A stretch of 64,000 nucleotides of DNA from Lyngbya aestuarii BL J. GTDB taxonomy: Bacteria; Cyanobacteriota; Cyanobacteriia; Cyanobacteriales; Microcoleaceae. Below, in pieces: positions 6,982 to 14,478 of the stretch. The position numbers and the translations under genes are program-made. The stretch spans positions 1 to 64,000 of the forward strand of contig NZ_AUZM01000022.1 of assembly GCF_000478195.2 (NCBI RefSeq). The letters run 5' to 3'. The notes under the pieces were generated by a model. That model had not been told where the DNA came from. It saw nothing but the letters and a program-made list of their open reading frames with translations, and made no database searches. How positions within the stretch are numbered: the first letter of the stretch is position 1; every line of letters begins with the position of its first letter.

Positions 6982-7596
6982 TTAAACTTCAGAATCTATA
7001 GTCCAACACCAAAGTTGATGATCAGAAGTGGCGGCATACAATTTTCCATCCATTCCCGCCATTGCAACCACATTATTAGCATGACCGATTTCTTGCCATT
7101 TTATCCCATCAGAAGTGAGATTAACCTGCCAAAGTTTATGATCAAAAGTTACTGCATAGAGTTGATTATTTGTCGCAGCTAATGAGATCACAGAAATTCC
7201 TCGACCAATCTGTTTCCAGTTGAGATCAACTCGACCATCTCGTACCCAAAATTTATCATCGGAACTCACGGCATAAAGTTTACCATCCATGGCAGTCATT
7301 GTAACTATATTATTCGCCACAGTAATCGCTTGCCAACCCCGATCTTCTGTTACAATAGCTCGTATCCAGAGTTGATCTTCAGAAGTGGCTGCATAGAGTT
7401 TTTCATCCATTGCCGCCATGGCAACTACATTATTTGCATGACCAATAACTTGCCAGTTAATATCACCCCGAATAGCAACTCGTACCCAGAGTTTATTCTC
7501 AGAAGTTGCAGCATAAAGGGTTTCATCCAACGCTGTCATTGCAATCACATTATTCGCATGACCAATCAGTTGCCAATTCACTGAATTAATACTCAT
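6982..7596 (-). CDS. Five-repeat beta-propeller (tachylectin-2/tectonin-like) protein
   Basis: The 204-residue protein is almost entirely five tandem repeats of about 40 residues, each with the pattern W-x-x-I-x-x-A-N-N-V-V-x-M-A-x-M-D, then LYAATS and LW. Five equal blades with a W...LYA...LW pattern recall tachylectin-2, a five-bladed lectin propeller, and tectonin repeats. That suggests carbohydrate or surface binding, but this is an inference from the repeat pattern. There is no signal peptide and no membrane segment. Repeats 1, 2 and 5 are very alike and repeat 4 is the most diverged, pointing to recent internal duplication. It is transcribed away from the LRAT-like gene, with which it shares a 171-base control region. 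Confidence 0.7.
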   Translation of the reverse strand: MSINSVNWQLIGHANNVIAMTALDETLYAATSENKLWVRVAIRGDINWQVIGHANNVVAMAAMDEKLYAATSEDQLWIRAIVTEDRGWQAITVANNIVTMTAMDGKLYAVSSDDKFWVRDGRVDLNWKQIGRGISVISLAATNNQLYAVTFDHKLWQVNLTSDGIKWQEIGHANNVVAMAGMDGKLYAATSDHQLWCWTIDSEV

Positions 7597-7767
7597 TGTA
7601 CCTGATCCTTTTCAATCCCATTAATAAGACAAATGCAGCAAATGCTAGGATACTTCCGGAAAGGTTAATCAACTTTCAAAACAAACAACACTTCTGAAGA
7701 TAAATCATTCTCAGTAGACAACTTAAACAATTTATACTAAAAAATAGAGTTAAACAGCAGGGGAAAT

Positions 7768-8451
7768 ATGGCCAGAGGCGATCAAGTTTATGCTTATCGA
7801 GAATTTTTTAATCTAGATGGCGTTTATGAGCATCATGGAGTAGACTGTGGAGATGGTAGCGTTATTCACTACCGCAAACCCAGCGAAATCGTTGAACGGA
7901 CTTCAATGGAAACTTTTGCACGGGGGGGGAAAGTTTATATTAGACCTTATCCGGTGCGCTATATTCCTGATACTGTGATTCAGCGAGCAGAAAGTCGTTT
8001 GGGAGAGTGTAAATATAATTTATTATTCAACAACTGTGAACATTTTGCGACATGGTGCGTGACAGGTGTCAATGATAGTCGCCAGATTAGAAATTTTGTA
8101 CCGCTTCTCAATCAAATTGATGTTGATCAATTATATCGACCTATTCAAGAAGCTTTAACCGGGATTAAAAAAGATAACGCACCGTTGTTGTTAGATAAAG
8201 CCTTAGCTGATATTCGTACTGCTTGGGATGATGTTCATCCGCAATATAAACAAGCTCTTGAAGATATGAATACTTGGCAAAATGTAGCGAAGGAAGCTTT
8301 AAAACGAAATCGAGAAGATTTAGCTCGCCAAGCATTACAACGAAAGATTGGTTATGAAAAACGCGCTCAAGAACTTGAAGAAAATTTAGAAAATTTAGCT
8401 GCAATGACTCAAACTTTAATTAGTAATCAGAAAAATCTACAAATTCTCTAG
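7768..8451 (+). CDS. LRAT/NC-domain acyltransferase-like protein fused to a PspA/IM30-like helical domain
   Basis: Residues 1-100 match the LRAT/H-rev107 branch of the NlpC/P60 superfamily: GDQVY near the start, catalytic-type histidines in EHHGVD (H22/H23) and IHY (H34), and the nucleophile motif NNCEHF (C90). Such domains are thiol acyltransferases or lipases. Residues of about 140-227 are a long charged helical region. Its segment with LARQALQRKIGYEKRAQELE resembles the helix-2/3 hairpin of PspA/Vipp1 (IM30), proteins that coat membranes. A fusion of a lipid-acting thiol enzyme with a membrane-binding coil is coherent, but the PspA part is my own pattern match. No signal peptide is seen. 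The sequence caggggaaat before the ATG gives a fair ribosome site. Confidence 0.75.
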   Translation: MARGDQVYAYREFFNLDGVYEHHGVDCGDGSVIHYRKPSEIVERTSMETFARGGKVYIRPYPVRYIPDTVIQRAESRLGECKYNLLFNNCEHFATWCVTGVNDSRQIRNFVPLLNQIDVDQLYRPIQEALTGIKKDNAPLLLDKALADIRTAWDDVHPQYKQALEDMNTWQNVAKEALKRNREDLARQALQRKIGYEKRAQELEENLENLAAMTQTLISNQKNLQIL

Positions 8452-8821
8452 AAGGGATTGTCTCTTGACCCTAAAATTAGCGCTGATTTCAATCTGGGTC
8501 AGGAGTGCAGGAGTCCGAAACGCGCCGATGATGAACTCATAGAGGAGTGATCGCGATTTTCTCCCAACCCCATGACCCTGACCCATAAATCCGTCAATAG
8601 GGGCAAGAGTGCTGACTCCATCTGTTCTAACTCCTTAAATAACATTTGAGCCTGTTTGGGGCTGATCAGTAATGAGATTAACCCCTTGTCAAGTTGGAGA
8701 TTTGTGTTATATTTTTAGACTAATGGCTATACTTGCCAATAGTTTGTCCGAGCTATTCGGCTGAGTTTAGATTAAAGTCTTGATTGTAAAGTTGTTAAAC
8801 CCTTGTTCTGGTAACTGACCC
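8452..8821. other. Spacer between LRAT-like gene and clpS
   Basis: This 370-base stretch has no large gene. Its left half carries a short minus-strand frame (8499-8645, listed separately). The right half, from about 8690, is AT-rich and presumably holds the clpS promoter; I see no clear -35/-10 pair. Confidence 0.5.
8499..8645 (-). CDS. Possible small protein or gene remnant (48 residues)
   Basis: A minus-strand frame of 48 codons. Its first half reads like real protein (MLFKELEQMESALLPLL, then TDLWVRVMGLGE), and the same style continues upstream of the ATG (LISLLISPKQAQ) to a stop near 8715. The second half is Ser-rich and may be out of frame. I do not recognise the family. It may be a short cyanobacterial protein with a non-ATG start or the remnant of a larger gene. 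Confidence 0.35.
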   Translation of the reverse strand: MLFKELEQMESALLPLLTDLWVRVMGLGENRDHSSMSSSSARFGLLHS

Positions 8822-9115
8822 ATGACATCTTCTCCTACTGTTGCGCCCAGTCGTTCCAGTCAAGTTACCCAGCAACCTTATCCCAACTATAAGGTAATTG
8901 TTCTGAACGACGACTTCAACACCTTTGAACACGTTTCTAGTTGTCTGATGAAGTATATTCCAGGAATGAATAGCGATCTCGCCTGGAAACTTACGAATCA
9001 AGTTCACTTTGAAGGCCAAGCAACAGTATGGGTTGGCCCTCAAGAACAGGCTGAACTTTATCATACTCAATTAAGTCGAGAAGGATTAACGATGGCCCCC
9101 TTAGAAAAGGCTTAA
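8822..9115 (+). CDS. clpS: ATP-dependent Clp protease adaptor ClpS
   Basis: A 97-residue protein with the ClpS core from about residue 22: YKVIVLNDDFNTFEHV, then CLMKYIPG, a segment ending VHFEGQA, and a C-terminal AELYHTQLSREGLTMAP. ClpS binds the N-domain of ClpC/ClpA and delivers N-end-rule substrates to the Clp protease. The NDD motif and the following Phe-rich helix form the degron pocket. Cyanobacteria often carry two ClpS forms; which one this is cannot be told safely. The stop overlaps the end of the convergent gene by four bases. Confidence 0.93.
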   Translation: MTSSPTVAPSRSSQVTQQPYPNYKVIVLNDDFNTFEHVSSCLMKYIPGMNSDLAWKLTNQVHFEGQATVWVGPQEQAELYHTQLSREGLTMAPLEKA

Positions 9116-9759: not shown

Positions 9760-12700
9760 CTAGGCGGCGCCGATTTTGTTTTTAGTTTCTTCTAGAATTT
9801 CTTCTATCGCCCAAACAGTGGCTTGTTTTACAGTAATTTTATTATCAGACCCATACATTATTCTTTTTACTTTTCTAGAAACAACTCTCACCAATTCATA
9901 TCTATTGATTTTGTGCGGCTTACATTCCGTTGTTAATCGATCCAATAATAATTGTATGGGATCGAAATCTTTATCAAGATTTGCATGATATTGTGACTGA
10001 TTATTTTGATTGCTTGAACTATTATTTGCGGAAGTTGGTGACTGATTATTTGAATTGCTTGAGCTATTATTTTCGGGATTTTGTGGCTGATTATTCGGTG
10101 AATAAAACTGAAAATCCAGAGCTTCAATTTTTATCGATATTGAATGACTACGTTCTCCAACTCTAGCTTGAAATGAGAAATCACCCTCTACATCGCCAGC
10201 AATAAAATCAAATTCAGCAATCCAATCGTTAGACTTTTTAGAAATCCTTAAATTCAAGATTTGATTATCTTTTTTAGCGGTAATTTTACCCCCTTTTGAC
10301 TGCCATTTTACATCATTTACTTTAATTGAATCTCCAACTTGATCGTACCCCTTAAGCGTTAAAGTACACTGTTCACCGGGTTGAAGTTTAGTTTGGCTAG
10401 TGGATATTTCTAATGTTCTGAGTACAGGAACAATTTCAACCGTTACTGTATCATCAACTCCTGATACTTCGATAAATCCATCGGCAATCCATTCAATGAT
10501 ATTCAATATGTATTTAAGAACTGTTTTAAGTACCCAGGCTTGAAGATTTAACTCTGCTGTAGATATATCAGGATCAAAATCAGCATCTGAATCAATGATT
10601 TCTTCTCCCATCTCATCTTCTGGCTGTAACTCAGCATTTTCTTCTTTATCCTTAAACAAATTTGTAAATTTTTTAATCTTGATACCCCATGAAAAAATTT
10701 GTTGTATTTGTCGGATGATCTGTAAAATCAGTTTGAGATAAATTCCCCAAGTAAAGAGTTGTACTTGAATCCCATATTTAGGAACACTACAAGTTTTAGC
10801 TTTAACCCTGTATACACCCTTTGAGTTATAGCCAGCAGTATAATGTCCTTTCTGGTTAATTATTCCTCCGGTTGCTTCCCAGTTAATTATTCCAGGGTCT
10901 ATAGAATAACCAAACTGATCTAAACCAATTACAGTAAATTGCTGATGTTCACCAGGTTCTAATTGAATAATTGAACTCGGATTAATCTTGATTTCTCGTA
11001 AGACAGGAAGTAATGTAACAGAAGCAGTTTTATAAACTTCTCCCACACTCGCAGTAACAGTTACATAACGTTCTTCATATCCTCCTTTAAAAACTCCATT
11101 AGAATTAATTTTACCTCCTGGACTACACTCCCATTTCACATCATCCAAAGCACAGAGTTCGCCTGTCTGATCGTATGCAATCACATCAAAATGCACGGGT
11201 TGATTCGGTTCAACAGATATGTTTTCTGGTGAAATTAAGACATATTCTAAGACAGAAGGAACAATAAATTGAACAGAGGCTTTGAGATTATAACTGGGAA
11301 TAGATGCGGTAACTTCAAAAGAACCTTTAGCGTTTTCATCAACAGTTAAACAGCCTTGTTGGTCAATTTTTCCTCCTACCGCTTTCCAATAAACAGACTT
11401 AACAGGAAACTCATTCCCCCTTTGGTCAAAACCTTTAACTGTAAATTGGAAAGTTTTACCGGGGTTTAATTCTATTAAAGATGAATTCAACTTGCATATT
11501 GTTTCAGGTAGAGCAATCTCGATAGCATCAAGACGCGCAGGTTCAAAAACTTTAACAAATGCTTTACCTGAAATGTTGTTAGCAGTTGCAGTAATCGTAA
11601 CATAAGCATCTCGATTAGATACTTCATTACCATCCGATAAAGATTCTTCTGTGTGCGGATCAATAGGCAAATCTTGATTCTCTAATTCGGATGGGAGTTC
11701 ATTCGAGTCATCATAATCTTGATTAGATACTTCATTACCATCCGATAAAGATTCTTCTGTGTGCGGATCAATAGGCAAATCTTGATTCTCTAATTCGGAT
11801 GGGAGTTCATTCGAGTCATCATAATCTTGATTAAATACTTCATTACCATCCGATAAAGATTCTTCCGCCATAAATTGATAGGGTTGGTCAGGTTTGAGTG
11901 AAATATATTCCGGTTCAATCTTTAAGTTTTTAACAATAGGAGGAACTTCAACAGTAGTAGAACCTTTGACATTCAACTCCGATGAAATAGCTTGAACTGT
12001 AAATTTTCCTTTTGTATTTTGACCAACTTTTAGATAGCCGTTGTTGTCAATTTCAAGACCTTCTGCTTCCCAGATGATAGGATTTTCCGTTGAAATTTCC
12101 CGTTGATGTTGGTCAAAGCCACGAACTTTTAATTGTTTAGTTTCACCCGGCTTTAAAGTGAAATCAGAAGGAATGATTTCTAGAGATGTTAACTTAGCAG
12201 GTTCAAGGACTGTAACCTCAACTTCAGCTTTTATTTCTCCAACAGTAGCGGTAATTTTTACTTTTTCTTCGGTCTGACTGGCGGTAAAAGTTCCATCCTC
12301 ATTAATCTTTCCACTTGTTGAAGTCCAGCAAACCCGATCTATTTTGATAGTCTGTTTATATTGATCAAAACCTTTGACTTGAAAAGACTGAGTTTCACCA
12401 AATTCTAACCCAACAAAAGATGGGGAAATTTCTAAAATCGTCAGTTTGGGAGGTTCAAGAACTTTAACCGTTACCTCGTTACTACTAATACTTCCAGACT
12501 TGGCGGTAACTTGAAAAATCCCATCATTATTTCCGGCTGTATAGATACCATTTTCAATAGTTCCACTCGTTGCATTCCAAGAAACAGTTTCAAGTTTAAA
12601 TTCGTTATTATATTGATCGAATCCTACGACGGTAAACGTTTGTTTTTCTTGAAAGTACAGCTTAGACACAAAACCCGGTTTAATGACTAACTTATCAAGC

Positions 12701-14211
12701 CTTGGCGGTTCTAAAACATCAATAGTAATGCAATCCTTTAGACAAGTTCCAGCTTTTGCTGTAACGGTAACTTTAGCCGTTTTTTGATCCGCTTTATATT
12801 CACCCGTCTGAGGATTGATTTTACCCTCTGTAACTTGCCAAAATACAGGTTGAGTTATTTCAAATATTTTATCATATTGGTCAAATCCCTGAGCTTTAAA
12901 CTGATAAACATCTCCGACTTCCAAAGGTTTAGTCGGTCTTAAAATTTGAACTTTGCTTAATTCGGGTTTGGAACTTCCTTTAAATGTATAGGGTGATTCC
13001 TTCGTGTCTAGATTCCAAACTTTTAGCCAATCACAGCTTCCGCAAATTAGCTTTTTATAATCAGAATAAATTGCTATACAATTAGTCAAGCCATGATTTA
13101 AAACCCAAGATTTTTCCGTTTCTATATTTTGAAACCAGATTGTACCATTACTGTCTACAATCACGAGAGTCTTTTCATCTAAAGTTAACTTAATGTCTTG
13201 AATTTTAGTGGACTTTTTGAAAATAGTATTACTGGAAATAAAGTCATATTTTTTTGGATTATCTTGGTCATTATTAAAGTTTAATAAAATAGACATAAAA
13301 CCCAGACTCATTCCACCTGTCAACTTAACCAATATAAGTGAAATAGCTATAATTAATACTTTAAAAGCGTTGATTATTTTGTTGTTTTTATCGGAAGGAA
13401 CATTTTTCCAAAATTTTATTTCTCCATTTCGACTTCCACTAAATAGCCGTTCACCATCTGAACTAATCGCTAAGGCTTGAACCCAGTCCGAATGTTCCTT
13501 GAGAGTTTGTAAGAGTTTACCGCTATTTAAGTCCCATAATTTAATCGTGTTATCGGTGCTACCACTGGCTATAATGCCGTCAGAACTAATTACAGCAGAA
13601 CAAATCCACCCCGAATGATCGGTTAGAGTATGTTGCTGTTTTCTGGTGTTTAAATCCCAAATTTTAAGGGTTTTATCGCAACTCCCACTGACCAATTTTT
13701 TTCCATCAGGACTAACGGCGAGCGTTGTTACCCAACTCGAATGTCCTTCCAAGGTAAATAAAATTTTTCCGGTTTCCAGACTCCAAATCTTAATTTGACT
13801 ATCTGTACCCCCCGTAATTAGAGTTTTACTATCTGGAGCGATAGCAACAGACAAAACCCAATGAGAATCAGCCTCTATTTTTCGTAATAATTCTCCGGTT
13901 TCCGCATCCCAAACTCTAACAATCTTCCAACTTCCACCAACAATATATTTATTATCAGGACTAATAACAATACTTGTAATTGTATCGGTAGCAATGGGTA
14001 AGTTACCGTTTTCAGTTAAATCTGGGTTGTATCCCTGCAAAATTCTATAGGTTGATTGTTGTACTTTTTCGGATTTATCTTTTAACGCCTGTCGTGTAAA
14101 CAAATCCAAGTGTTCGTTAGATTTTAAGCAATTTTGCAAGGCATTGAGTCGAACATGAATATCGGGACTATTTAGGCAAGATTCAAGAGTAGGTTTGGGT
14201 AGAGTTTCCAT
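9760..14211 (-). CDS. Giant WD40 / Ig-like repeat protein with RNA polymerase omega-like C-terminus
   Basis: About 1483 residues from the ATG at 14211, which has an AAGGT sequence before it; a longer TTG start at 14280 is possible. Order: a helical start (about 1-70), some six WD40 units (about 75-300) with repeated LKIWDL-type ends, a hydrophobic segment (about 305-330), a degenerate WD-like stretch, then about nine Big-2/Ig-like domains of 80-90 residues. The Ig-like units share GFDQY, an SGKIN-like turn and VEVTVLEP-like ends. One Ig-like unit is interrupted by a 36-residue acidic tandem repeat. Near the end come a Ser/Asn/Gln-rich linker and a last 65 residues containing NRYELVRVVSRK and WAIEEILEE, which resemble the omega subunit (RpoZ). 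No signal peptide is visible. Function is unknown; the repeats argue for a scaffold. Confidence 0.8.
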   Translation of the reverse strand: METLPKPTLESCLNSPDIHVRLNALQNCLKSNEHLDLFTRQALKDKSEKVQQSTYRILQGYNPDLTENGNLPIATDTITSIVISPDNKYIVGGSWKIVRVWDAETGELLRKIEADSHWVLSVAIAPDSKTLITGGTDSQIKIWSLETGKILFTLEGHSSWVTTLAVSPDGKKLVSGSCDKTLKIWDLNTRKQQHTLTDHSGWICSAVISSDGIIASGSTDNTIKLWDLNSGKLLQTLKEHSDWVQALAISSDGERLFSGSRNGEIKFWKNVPSDKNNKIINAFKVLIIAISLILVKLTGGMSLGFMSILLNFNNDQDNPKKYDFISSNTIFKKSTKIQDIKLTLDEKTLVIVDSNGTIWFQNIETEKSWVLNHGLTNCIAIYSDYKKLICGSCDWLKVWNLDTKESPYTFKGSSKPELSKVQILRPTKPLEVGDVYQFKAQGFDQYDKIFEITQPVFWQVTEGKINPQTGEYKADQKTAKVTVTAKAGTCLKDCITIDVLEPPRLDKLVIKPGFVSKLYFQEKQTFTVVGFDQYNNEFKLETVSWNATSGTIENGIYTAGNNDGIFQVTAKSGSISSNEVTVKVLEPPKLTILEISPSFVGLEFGETQSFQVKGFDQYKQTIKIDRVCWTSTSGKINEDGTFTASQTEEKVKITATVGEIKAEVEVTVLEPAKLTSLEIIPSDFTLKPGETKQLKVRGFDQHQREISTENPIIWEAEGLEIDNNGYLKVGQNTKGKFTVQAISSELNVKGSTTVEVPPIVKNLKIEPEYISLKPDQPYQFMAEESLSDGNEVFNQDYDDSNELPSELENQDLPIDPHTEESLSDGNEVSNQDYDDSNELPSELENQDLPIDPHTEESLSDGNEVSNRDAYVTITATANNISGKAFVKVFEPARLDAIEIALPETICKLNSSLIELNPGKTFQFTVKGFDQRGNEFPVKSVYWKAVGGKIDQQGCLTVDENAKGSFEVTASIPSYNLKASVQFIVPSVLEYVLISPENISVEPNQPVHFDVIAYDQTGELCALDDVKWECSPGGKINSNGVFKGGYEERYVTVTASVGEVYKTASVTLLPVLREIKINPSSIIQLEPGEHQQFTVIGLDQFGYSIDPGIINWEATGGIINQKGHYTAGYNSKGVYRVKAKTCSVPKYGIQVQLFTWGIYLKLILQIIRQIQQIFSWGIKIKKFTNLFKDKEENAELQPEDEMGEEIIDSDADFDPDISTAELNLQAWVLKTVLKYILNIIEWIADGFIEVSGVDDTVTVEIVPVLRTLEISTSQTKLQPGEQCTLTLKGYDQVGDSIKVNDVKWQSKGGKITAKKDNQILNLRISKKSNDWIAEFDFIAGDVEGDFSFQARVGERSHSISIKIEALDFQFYSPNNQPQNPENNSSSNSNNQSPTSANNSSSNQNNQSQYHANLDKDFDPIQLLLDRLTTECKPHKINRYELVRVVSRKVKRIMYGSDNKITVKQATVWAIEEILEETKNKIGAA
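11613..11872 (-). repeat. 108-base tandem repeat inside the WD40/Ig-like gene
   Basis: Two full copies (11613-11720, 11721-11828) and a partial third (from 11829) of a 108-base unit, in frame, encoding a 36-residue acidic segment with EESLSDGNEVSN and ELPSELENQDLP. The copies are nearly identical at DNA level, with a few changes in the outer ones, so the duplication is young and may vary in number between strains. Confidence 0.9.
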
Positions 14212-14478
14212 GATTTTACCTTGTTTAAAATTGCTTTTTAGATTAGAATTTGGAGATTGGAGATGATGCAGGTTAATCAAGCTTTAATTGAAATCTTGGT
14301 GGTGGCAACTGGATGATGAGTTTATTTCAACCTCTACTCTCCAGATTAAGCGTTTTAAACTTGGATAGCTACGGGGTAATTACGGAACTTTGATAATTTT
14401 ATTAGCCTCAAAAATTAGATCGTTCTCAGTAGAATTACTGATCTGATAGCCCAACACCCTATAGGCTATGCTTTTCAT

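Follow-up and report, generated by a model that had tools for sequence, protein, structure and literature searches.

A cyanobacterial protein family joining an LRAT/PLAAT-type enzyme domain to a truncated PspA/Vipp1 hairpin

The locus

The window analysed here, a stretch of 64,000 nucleotides from Lyngbya aestuarii BL J (contig NZ_AUZM01000022.1, positions 1 to 64,000), bears at 7768-8451 (+) an ORF of 227 aa with an ATG start and a TAG stop. ORF calling and translation confirmed the coordinates and length given in the sequence-only reading, which had proposed an LRAT-type thiol acyltransferase fused to a PspA/IM30-like membrane coil. The features assigned within the gene are listed in window coordinates; 'members' are the distinct family sequences described in the next section. 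Papers are cited by PMC number, for the sections drawn on.

7768..8451, + strand: LRAT-PspA fusion gene, 227 aa plus stop (ORF and translation)
7771..8070, + strand: LRAT/PLAAT-type thiol enzyme domain, residues 2-101 (Pfam LRAT, E = 4.9e-27; superposition on PLAAT3 4dot)
7831..7833, + strand: H22, aligned with the PLAAT3 catalytic His (117 of 117 members)
7867..7869, + strand: H34, aligned with the second triad His of PLAAT3 (117 of 117 members)
8035..8037, + strand: C90, putative catalytic Cys in NCEHF (117 of 117 members)
8056..8058, + strand: C97, seven residues past C90 (Cys in 114 of 117 members)
8071..8169, + strand: linker, residues 102-134 (pLDDT below 50 at 112-134)
8170..8304, + strand: hairpin arm 1, residues 135-179, corresponding to Vipp1/PspA alpha1, about 36-80 (model, 7o3w superposition, alignment)
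8275..8277, + strand: W170, corresponding to PspA/Vipp1 W71, an alpha5-contact residue (W in 117 of 117 members; contact list of PMC11746142)
8314..8445, + strand: hairpin arm 2, residues 183-226, corresponding to the start of Vipp1/PspA alpha2-3, about 84-127 (model, superposition, alignment)
8320..8337, + strand: alpha5-facing tip stretch with L185, R187 and L190, corresponding to Vipp1/PspA L86, R88 and L91 (conservation and cited contacts)

The gene is solitary, with a divergently oriented beta-propeller-like gene (6982-7596, - strand) upstream and, 370 bp downstream, a putatively ClpS-like ORF of 97 aa. A scan of 7400-9000 gave 9 promoter-like sites against 4.2 expected, none of them on the + strand ahead of the gene, and 0 terminators. 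Elsewhere in the window (9760-14280, - strand), a protein of 1,506 aa has WD40 repeats close to its N-terminus and, after them, a long repetitive-looking stretch whose acidic repeats (TEESLSDGNEV) are nearly identical.

The host genome (6.86 Mb in 437 contigs) contains photosystem II (PSII) reaction-centre genes. Its one LRAT gene is the fusion itself, besides which there are five PspA-type stretches, three of them consecutive on contig 34. Two further diverged or shortened PspA relatives lie on contig 72 (L198) and contig 29 (L199).

Family and distribution

The fusion is a conserved cyanobacterial family and an accessory gene. Among 59 related genomes (own included), 33 have a full-length fusion, in one copy each, and two more have it in two pieces; leaving out the L. 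aestuarii genome, the 32 of 58 relatives with full-length homologues show 49-73% identity. A draw across the phylum yielded full-length fusions, among the matches listed, in 44 of 386 genomes (own included), 38 in the order of L. aestuarii and 6 in other orders of its class. The search for other proteins with both domains, which the sequence-only reading had suggested as a check, was thus positive in both collections. The other 342 genomes of the phylum draw, which includes many without any match, have no full-length fusion among the matches listed. Nor, among those matches, does any of the 42 genomes of family f25, six of which (G073, G076, G078, G084, G095 and G101) carry full-length PspA-family genes, or any genome of family f36, where the six LRAT proteins read carry other tails.

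Loci in named genomes were found with the patterns NNCEHFA and [DEQ]G[VL]YEHHG, and the best 80 of at least 558 confirmed stretches were kept, a sample that favours those motifs. All 80 carry cyanobacterial titles, including Planktothrix, Arthrospira, Okeania, Trichodesmium, Microcystis, Spirulina, Pleurocapsa and Leptolyngbya. Within these best 80, an Oscillatoriales cyanobacterium has the closest homologue (73% identity). In all, 140 loci with a best ORF gave 117 distinct sequences, the host fusion included; three are short (L078, L082 and L086), and the two of these below 200 aa, L082 and L086, were left out of the hairpin comparisons, which use 115. The reference PspA/Vipp1 set began as 42 cyanobacterial candidates, of which 36 were aligned after 6 without a clear start were removed. 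A plasmid collection returned 30 matching records, and 0 of the 30 cover 80% of the query.

Four genomes under one genus label differ in the state of the gene. In G189 (4.8 Mb) the fusion is intact and six PSII reaction-centre matches are free of stops, whereas G193, G227 and G306 (2.8-3.1 Mb) have fusion remnants with stops, 20 of them in G227. Of their PSII genes, G193 and G306 retain fragments, mostly interrupted by stops, and the search of G227 gave none; each of the three has two intact PspA/Vipp1 genes. These reduced genomes look as if they came from non-photosynthetic endosymbionts. The contrast within the genus fits a thylakoid- or photosynthesis-linked role, but the decay in these three generally reduced genomes may go back to a single event.

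The LRAT/PLAAT half

Residues 2-101 match Pfam LRAT (PF04970) with 95 bits against a cut-off of 24.3 (E = 4.9e-27). PLAAT3 (4dot) and the modelled domain superpose over 94 residues (Z 14.1, rmsd 1.8, 32% identity), Foldseek matches the model to 4fa0 at E = 1.3e-5, and a profile of 20 family members run against the PDB finds PLAAT3 at 2.6e-7. We also note that chain E7 of 8iuf (NDUEG7, a subunit of the Euglena respiratory supercomplex) superposes on the LRAT domain with Z 13.6 over 115 residues.

The PLAAT3 alignment pairs its residues with H22, H34 and C90 of the fusion; the two histidines are numbered H23 (catalytic) and H35 (second of the triad) in PLAAT3. H22, H34, N89, C90, E91 and H92 are identical in all 117 distinct homologues, and the neighbouring H23 of the fusion is near-invariant too (116 of 117). 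The triad is also present in 49 of 49 distinct sequences that were gathered by similarity search of genomes and not by the motif patterns. The His-Cys motifs of the sequence-only reading were H23, H34 and the NCEHF motif with C90: the last two stand, and H23 is rejected as the catalytic His, since H22 is the position that aligns with that of PLAAT3.

A second Cys seven residues downstream matters for the activity of LRAT (PMC3142127), and the corresponding C97 is found in 114 of the 117 members. The hydrophobic pocket of permuted NlpC/P60 enzymes probably accommodates lipid-like substrates (PMC3142127), and the C113S mutant of PLAAT3 is termed lipase-dead (PMC9338259). Given the invariant triad, C97 and the modelled PLAAT fold, the default reading is that the enzyme half is an intact thiol acyl-enzyme, as predicted from alignment and model.

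Both halves are under purifying selection. Over the 14 least alike of 106 sequence pairs, which share members and so are not independent, dN/dS is 0.06-0.18 for the LRAT part; for the hairpin it is 0.13-0.52 in 13 of these pairs and undefined in one, and the LRAT half is the more constrained in those 13 of 14. No transmembrane stretch was seen by hydropathy, the highest 19-residue mean being 0.38 in the fusion protein and at most 1.44 in all 117 members. Secretion or peptidoglycan hydrolysis was rejected on the same analysis, as the N-terminus is not hydrophobic.

The PspA/IM30 half

Pfam PspA_IM30 (PF04012) matches residues 143-217 with 37.3 bits against a cut-off of 33.9 (E = 2.9e-9), and this match covers only positions 43-117 of the 220 in the profile. 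Ten fusion rows appeared in the Pfam search of the 59 genomes, four above the PspA_IM30 cut-off and six below it. The NCBIfam PspA model gives 1e-6, far under its own cut-off, as expected because only a fragment of the domain is present. The 20-member family profile finds Vipp1 structures in the PDB at 2.9e-8, its positions 123-220 falling on Vipp1 26-121. Conversely, a profile of the 42 cyanobacterial PspA/Vipp1 sequences, searched against the 117 fusions only, matches every one of them, with E-values (for that set of 117) of 1e-11 for the host fusion, 1.7e-10 at the median and 0.14 at worst. Curated Pfam cut-offs and these profile E-values led us to reject a chance similarity between coils.

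AlphaFold2 models the fusion (mean pLDDT 78.9, pTM 0.52) as an LRAT domain and a two-helix hairpin (135-179 and 183-226), joined by a stretch, 112-134, with pLDDT below 50; block means of pLDDT along the hairpin are 94-98 at 161-200 and 52-76 toward its base. The hairpin superposes on residues 30-128 of Vipp1 (7o3w) with Z 11.4 and rmsd 3.5 over 99 residues at 24% identity, and on 33-128 of PspA (4whe) with Z 10.6. Unrelated helical hairpins (chemoreceptor, IpaB and others) match it in VIA-align with similar Z, 10-12, so that the fold match by itself is weak and it is the sequence on which we base the assignment to PspA.

The pairing of LRAT with PspA/IM30 proposed by the sequence-only reading is therefore upheld, both Pfam matches exceeding their curated cut-offs. 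On the PspA part that reading had staked itself on a profile match above background and a predicted hairpin, and both were found. Two of its descriptions need correction. What it called the second helical hairpin of PspA/Vipp1 is, by Pfam and by superposition, the tip of the alpha1/alpha2-3 hairpin, about Vipp1 36-128; of the full core from alpha0 to alpha5, only alpha1 to early alpha2-3 is present. 'Membrane-coating coil' is not supported for a protein from which alpha0 and alpha5 are absent and in which lateral hairpin-hairpin residues are lost; with alpha4 missing as well, the fusion should not coat membranes by itself. Against the 36 cyanobacterial PspA/Vipp1 sequences the fusion hairpin shows 23-38% identity over 71 positions, and the closest of them among the matches listed have Vipp1-type starts.

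Tip residues and lateral residues

In PspA rods the fixed contacts between hairpin and alpha5 involve W71, K74, R88 and L91 with F196 and M212, and the fixed lateral contacts involve R44, K55, L125, K128, L138 and R142 (PMC11746142); in Vipp1 an L86-L193 cross-link has been reported, and Vipp1 without alpha5/alpha6 does not polymerise (PMC8281802). Our alignment equates W71, K74, R88 and L91 with W170, V173, R187 and L190 of the fusion, and R44, K55, L125 and K128 with D143, D154, L224 and L227, while positions 138 and 142 lie past the fusion's end.

Three of the four alpha5-contact positions are retained among the 115 fusions: position 71 is W in all 115, position 88 is R in 102 and K in 11, and position 91 is L in 97 and I in 17. 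Over all 117 members, the tip stretch has L at residue 185 in 108, R or K at 187 in 114, and L or I at 190 in 115. The lateral positions present quite another picture, with R44 kept as R in 2% of the 115, L125 as L in 23% and K128 as K in 3%, and with K55 never kept as K (D, N or E in 95 of 115); the lateral residue E126 is also lost. These counts suggest that the fusion has retained most of the alpha5 socket and has lost the lateral face. Among positions at least 94% identical across the 36 PspA/Vipp1 sequences, those kept in at least 80% of the 115 fusions number 8 of 10 in the range 68-94 and 1 of 13 in the rest of 36-128 (Fisher p = 0.0007, with the 68-94 boundaries picked after the alignment table had been viewed).

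The alpha5 site is nonetheless altered: K74 is replaced, by V in 114 and I in 1 of the 115, and L77 and G82, tip residues invariant in PspA, are kept in only 12% and 9%. The fusions also have conserved positions of their own, W153, V173 and L210, where PspA has Q54, R74 and Q111. The tip is also the best-aligned region of the hairpin, and some of its conserved Ala and Leu residues may serve hairpin packing only. A PspA-like hairpin does not require the Trp at position 71, to judge from the diverged PspA relative L198 in the host genome, which has Leu there. Since the fusion has no alpha5 of its own and an invariant Trp that faces alpha5, the alignment suggests that the alpha5 partner of the tip should be in trans.

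Neighbouring genes and detached modules

Neighbours were analysed in the 80 loci where the fusion gene was called (79 of the 80 named loci, L086 being missed, plus the host). Besides the fusion, each ORF cluster is present in at most 11 of the loci, and there are no PSP genes among the recurrent neighbours looked at in subsets of the loci. An upstream ORF of at least 80 aa is present in 72 of the 80 loci, on the same strand in 58 of these 72 and within 100 bp in 32. A GntR-family regulator lies 8-17 bp upstream of the fusion in 5 loci; an Fe/Mn superoxide dismutase is the next upstream gene in 4, two of which it shares with a preceding GntR gene; and FHA-domain genes are among the three nearest upstream in 13. 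The neighbours hint at oxidative stress and signalling.

Both halves also occur in other settings. Cyanobacterial LRAT proteins L157-L162 have long Gly-rich hydrophobic C-terminal segments where the hairpin would be; L154 and L155, from two genomes, have both tail types, Gly-rich and PspA, on LRAT, and in G081 and G090 LRAT and the tip are separated by a Gly-rich segment. A different tail, of about 100 residues and helical-looking, follows LRAT in L148-L153 (family f36); in L150, the one tested, Pfam names LRAT only. On the PspA side, the gene at L164:769-1596 (-) (G212) has an alpha0-like start (11 bits only), a Gly-rich hydrophobic segment and a hairpin tip, and no LRAT. In G084, a gene at L197:893-1759 has two PspA hairpins. 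A nearby gene at L197:2422-3999, cut by the end of the stretch, combines WD40 repeats with a Gly-rich segment and a stretch resembling PspA alpha4/alpha5; this last stretch matches profile positions 162-227 at E = 1.8e-11 in a search of 33 ORFs and is absent among the 25 Pfam rows listed. PspA pieces used apart in this way, in single cases, are what a plug-and-socket reading of the hairpin would expect. As a separate observation, a PspA-like stretch (profile 102-216) lies at G104:C1:368016-368354 within an open frame of 13,639 codons.

Proposed mechanism and alternatives

We propose that the fusion acts as an adapter, attaching a glycerolipid acyl-hydrolase/transferase to Vipp1/PspA polymers where membranes, possibly thylakoids, are under stress, a reading that we find plausible while stopping just short of calling it probable. 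We infer its activity, lipid substrate, docking partner and physiological role along the following lines. The protein would be a cytosolic, membrane-acting enzyme whose C90, in the LRAT/PLAAT domain, takes an acyl chain from a membrane glycerolipid as a thioester; the chain would then be hydrolysed or passed on, in phospholipase A/acyltransferase chemistry. The C-terminal 90 residues would serve as a truncated hairpin with its tip as a socket for the swapped alpha5 of a neighbouring PspA/Vipp1 subunit. Having no alpha0, alpha4 or alpha5 and no lateral packing residues, the fusion should build no polymer, and it would dock on those of Vipp1/PspA by taking a free alpha5 in trans. Docking would place the acyl-enzyme at (thylakoid) membrane that is under stress, leaking or freshly made, where lipids would be trimmed or remodelled; a membrane-stress or lipid-repair role is our best inference for the fusion.

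The hairpin might instead be a self-association module, working tip to tip or side by side, which would make the fusion a dimeric or oligomeric LRAT enzyme unrelated to Vipp1/PspA polymers. This would suit the many unrelated hairpins that superpose about as well as Vipp1, the replacement of K74, and the conserved W153, V173 and L210 that PspA does not share; but the three of four listed alpha5-contact positions that are kept, the invariant Trp among them, and the loss of the lateral residues by which PspA hairpins pack, make it unlikely in our judgement. We think it less likely again that the hairpin binds lipid or another protein directly and merely anchors the enzyme. E. coli PspA(1-144) does associate with PspF (PMC6003685), and the Gly-rich hydrophobic tails that replace the hairpin in L157-L162 suggest that the tail may be just an anchor, yet the fusion has no hydrophobic stretch and lacks the membrane-binding helix alpha0. 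PspF was rejected as the partner here, as the host genome (0 of 1) has no sigma-54 DNA-binding domain.

The stronger constraint on the LRAT half than on the hairpin, with the triad invariant in 117 of 117, would speak for an active enzyme and so against a regulator that occupies alpha5 and caps or depolymerises Vipp1/PspA assemblies, its LRAT domain a sensor of membrane lipid or inactive. We hold such a regulator to be improbable, although a subunit with the tip and without alpha5 would end a filament, much as Vipp1 deprived of alpha5/alpha6 fails to polymerise (PMC8281802). That the fusion serves in phage defence or conflict, attacking membranes when infection sets off the PspA part, strikes us as barely credible and was rejected: PADLOC gives two weak matches only, both in the coil (ZorA, E = 3e-4, and SspC, 0.016), no defence gene is among the recurrent neighbours named, and copies are conserved across many genera. 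One near full-length copy (L204; 49% identity, 230-aa ORF) is on a contig called viral, but this may be host flank, since the adjoining ORF, from its GHSLGG motif, is presumably lipase-like. That recruited PLAAT activity can wreck organelle membranes (PMC9338259) is the other point in favour of a defence role.

The adapter reading may be part of something wider, in which the hairpin tip and alpha5 of bacterial ESCRT-III are a separable socket and plug: the socket would have been grafted onto a PLAAT-like enzyme and the plug (alpha4/alpha5) onto other proteins, such as a WD40 protein, and the polymers would be damage-marked scaffolds that recruit lipid chemistry. This extension is possible, and we are inclined to doubt it.

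Relation to known systems

The sequence-only reading took the fusion for a new type of protein; the domain pairing is, however, already in print. A single sentence from 2024 predicts that a PspA_IM30-NlpC/P60 fusion (example AFZ52345.1) modifies phosphatidylcholine (PMC11237479), and LRAT-like proteins are one of the four main NlpC/P60 families (PMC3142127). We take AFZ52345.1 to share the LRAT-PspA architecture, the published fusion and ours having the same two superfamilies, both domains in one protein, and a predicted lipid-modifying role at membranes. The section of PMC11237479 on that fusion mentions neither the truncation, nor the retention of the tip, nor the breadth of the family. Searches of open-licence literature, mostly titles and the starts of abstracts, gave among the matches listed no experimental study of an LRAT-PspA fusion and nothing on the docking of such a protein through its tip. 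The novelty thus appears to lie in the anatomy that our alignment suggests, in which alpha5-receiving residues (three of four) are kept and lateral polymerisation residues are lost.

Human PLAAT/HRASLS enzymes (PLAAT3) share with the fusion the fold, the His-His-Cys residues and a C-terminal targeting region past the enzyme. In PLAAT3 that region comprises a proline-rich segment and a putative C-terminal transmembrane domain (PMC9338259), whereas the tail of the fusion is a soluble PspA hairpin, and hydropathy gives no sign of the transmembrane helix of the PLAAT subfamily. Vipp1/IM30 and PspA, the bacterial ESCRT-III proteins, have the hairpin sequence and conserved tip in common with the fusion, which differs from them in lacking alpha0, alpha4, alpha5 and alpha6, in the loss of R44, K55, E126 and K128, and in its added enzyme domain. 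The Gly-rich-tailed cyanobacterial proteins have the same LRAT domain, but their tail is hydrophobic and Gly-rich, not PspA.

PLAAT3 goes to damaged membranes, likely via its C-terminal region, and an artificially recruited PLAAT enzyme deforms organelles (PMC9338259); Vipp1 rings seek damaged membrane in vitro (PMC11919738). Cyanobacterial thylakoid lipids are mainly MGDG, DGDG, SQDG and PG (PMC5897459), which makes phosphatidylcholine doubtful as a substrate, and the acyl donor of the fusion is expected among those four. The fusion therefore calls the published guess at phosphatidylcholine into question. It is a concrete candidate for the mending of lipids at damage found by Vipp1, with C90, W170 and R187 as testable residues. 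If the proposal is true, the family would be nature's equivalent of engineered PLAAT recruitment to organelles (PMC9338259); on the wider plug-and-socket reading, ESCRT-III polymers would have a client-recruitment code made from a piece of the polymer itself.
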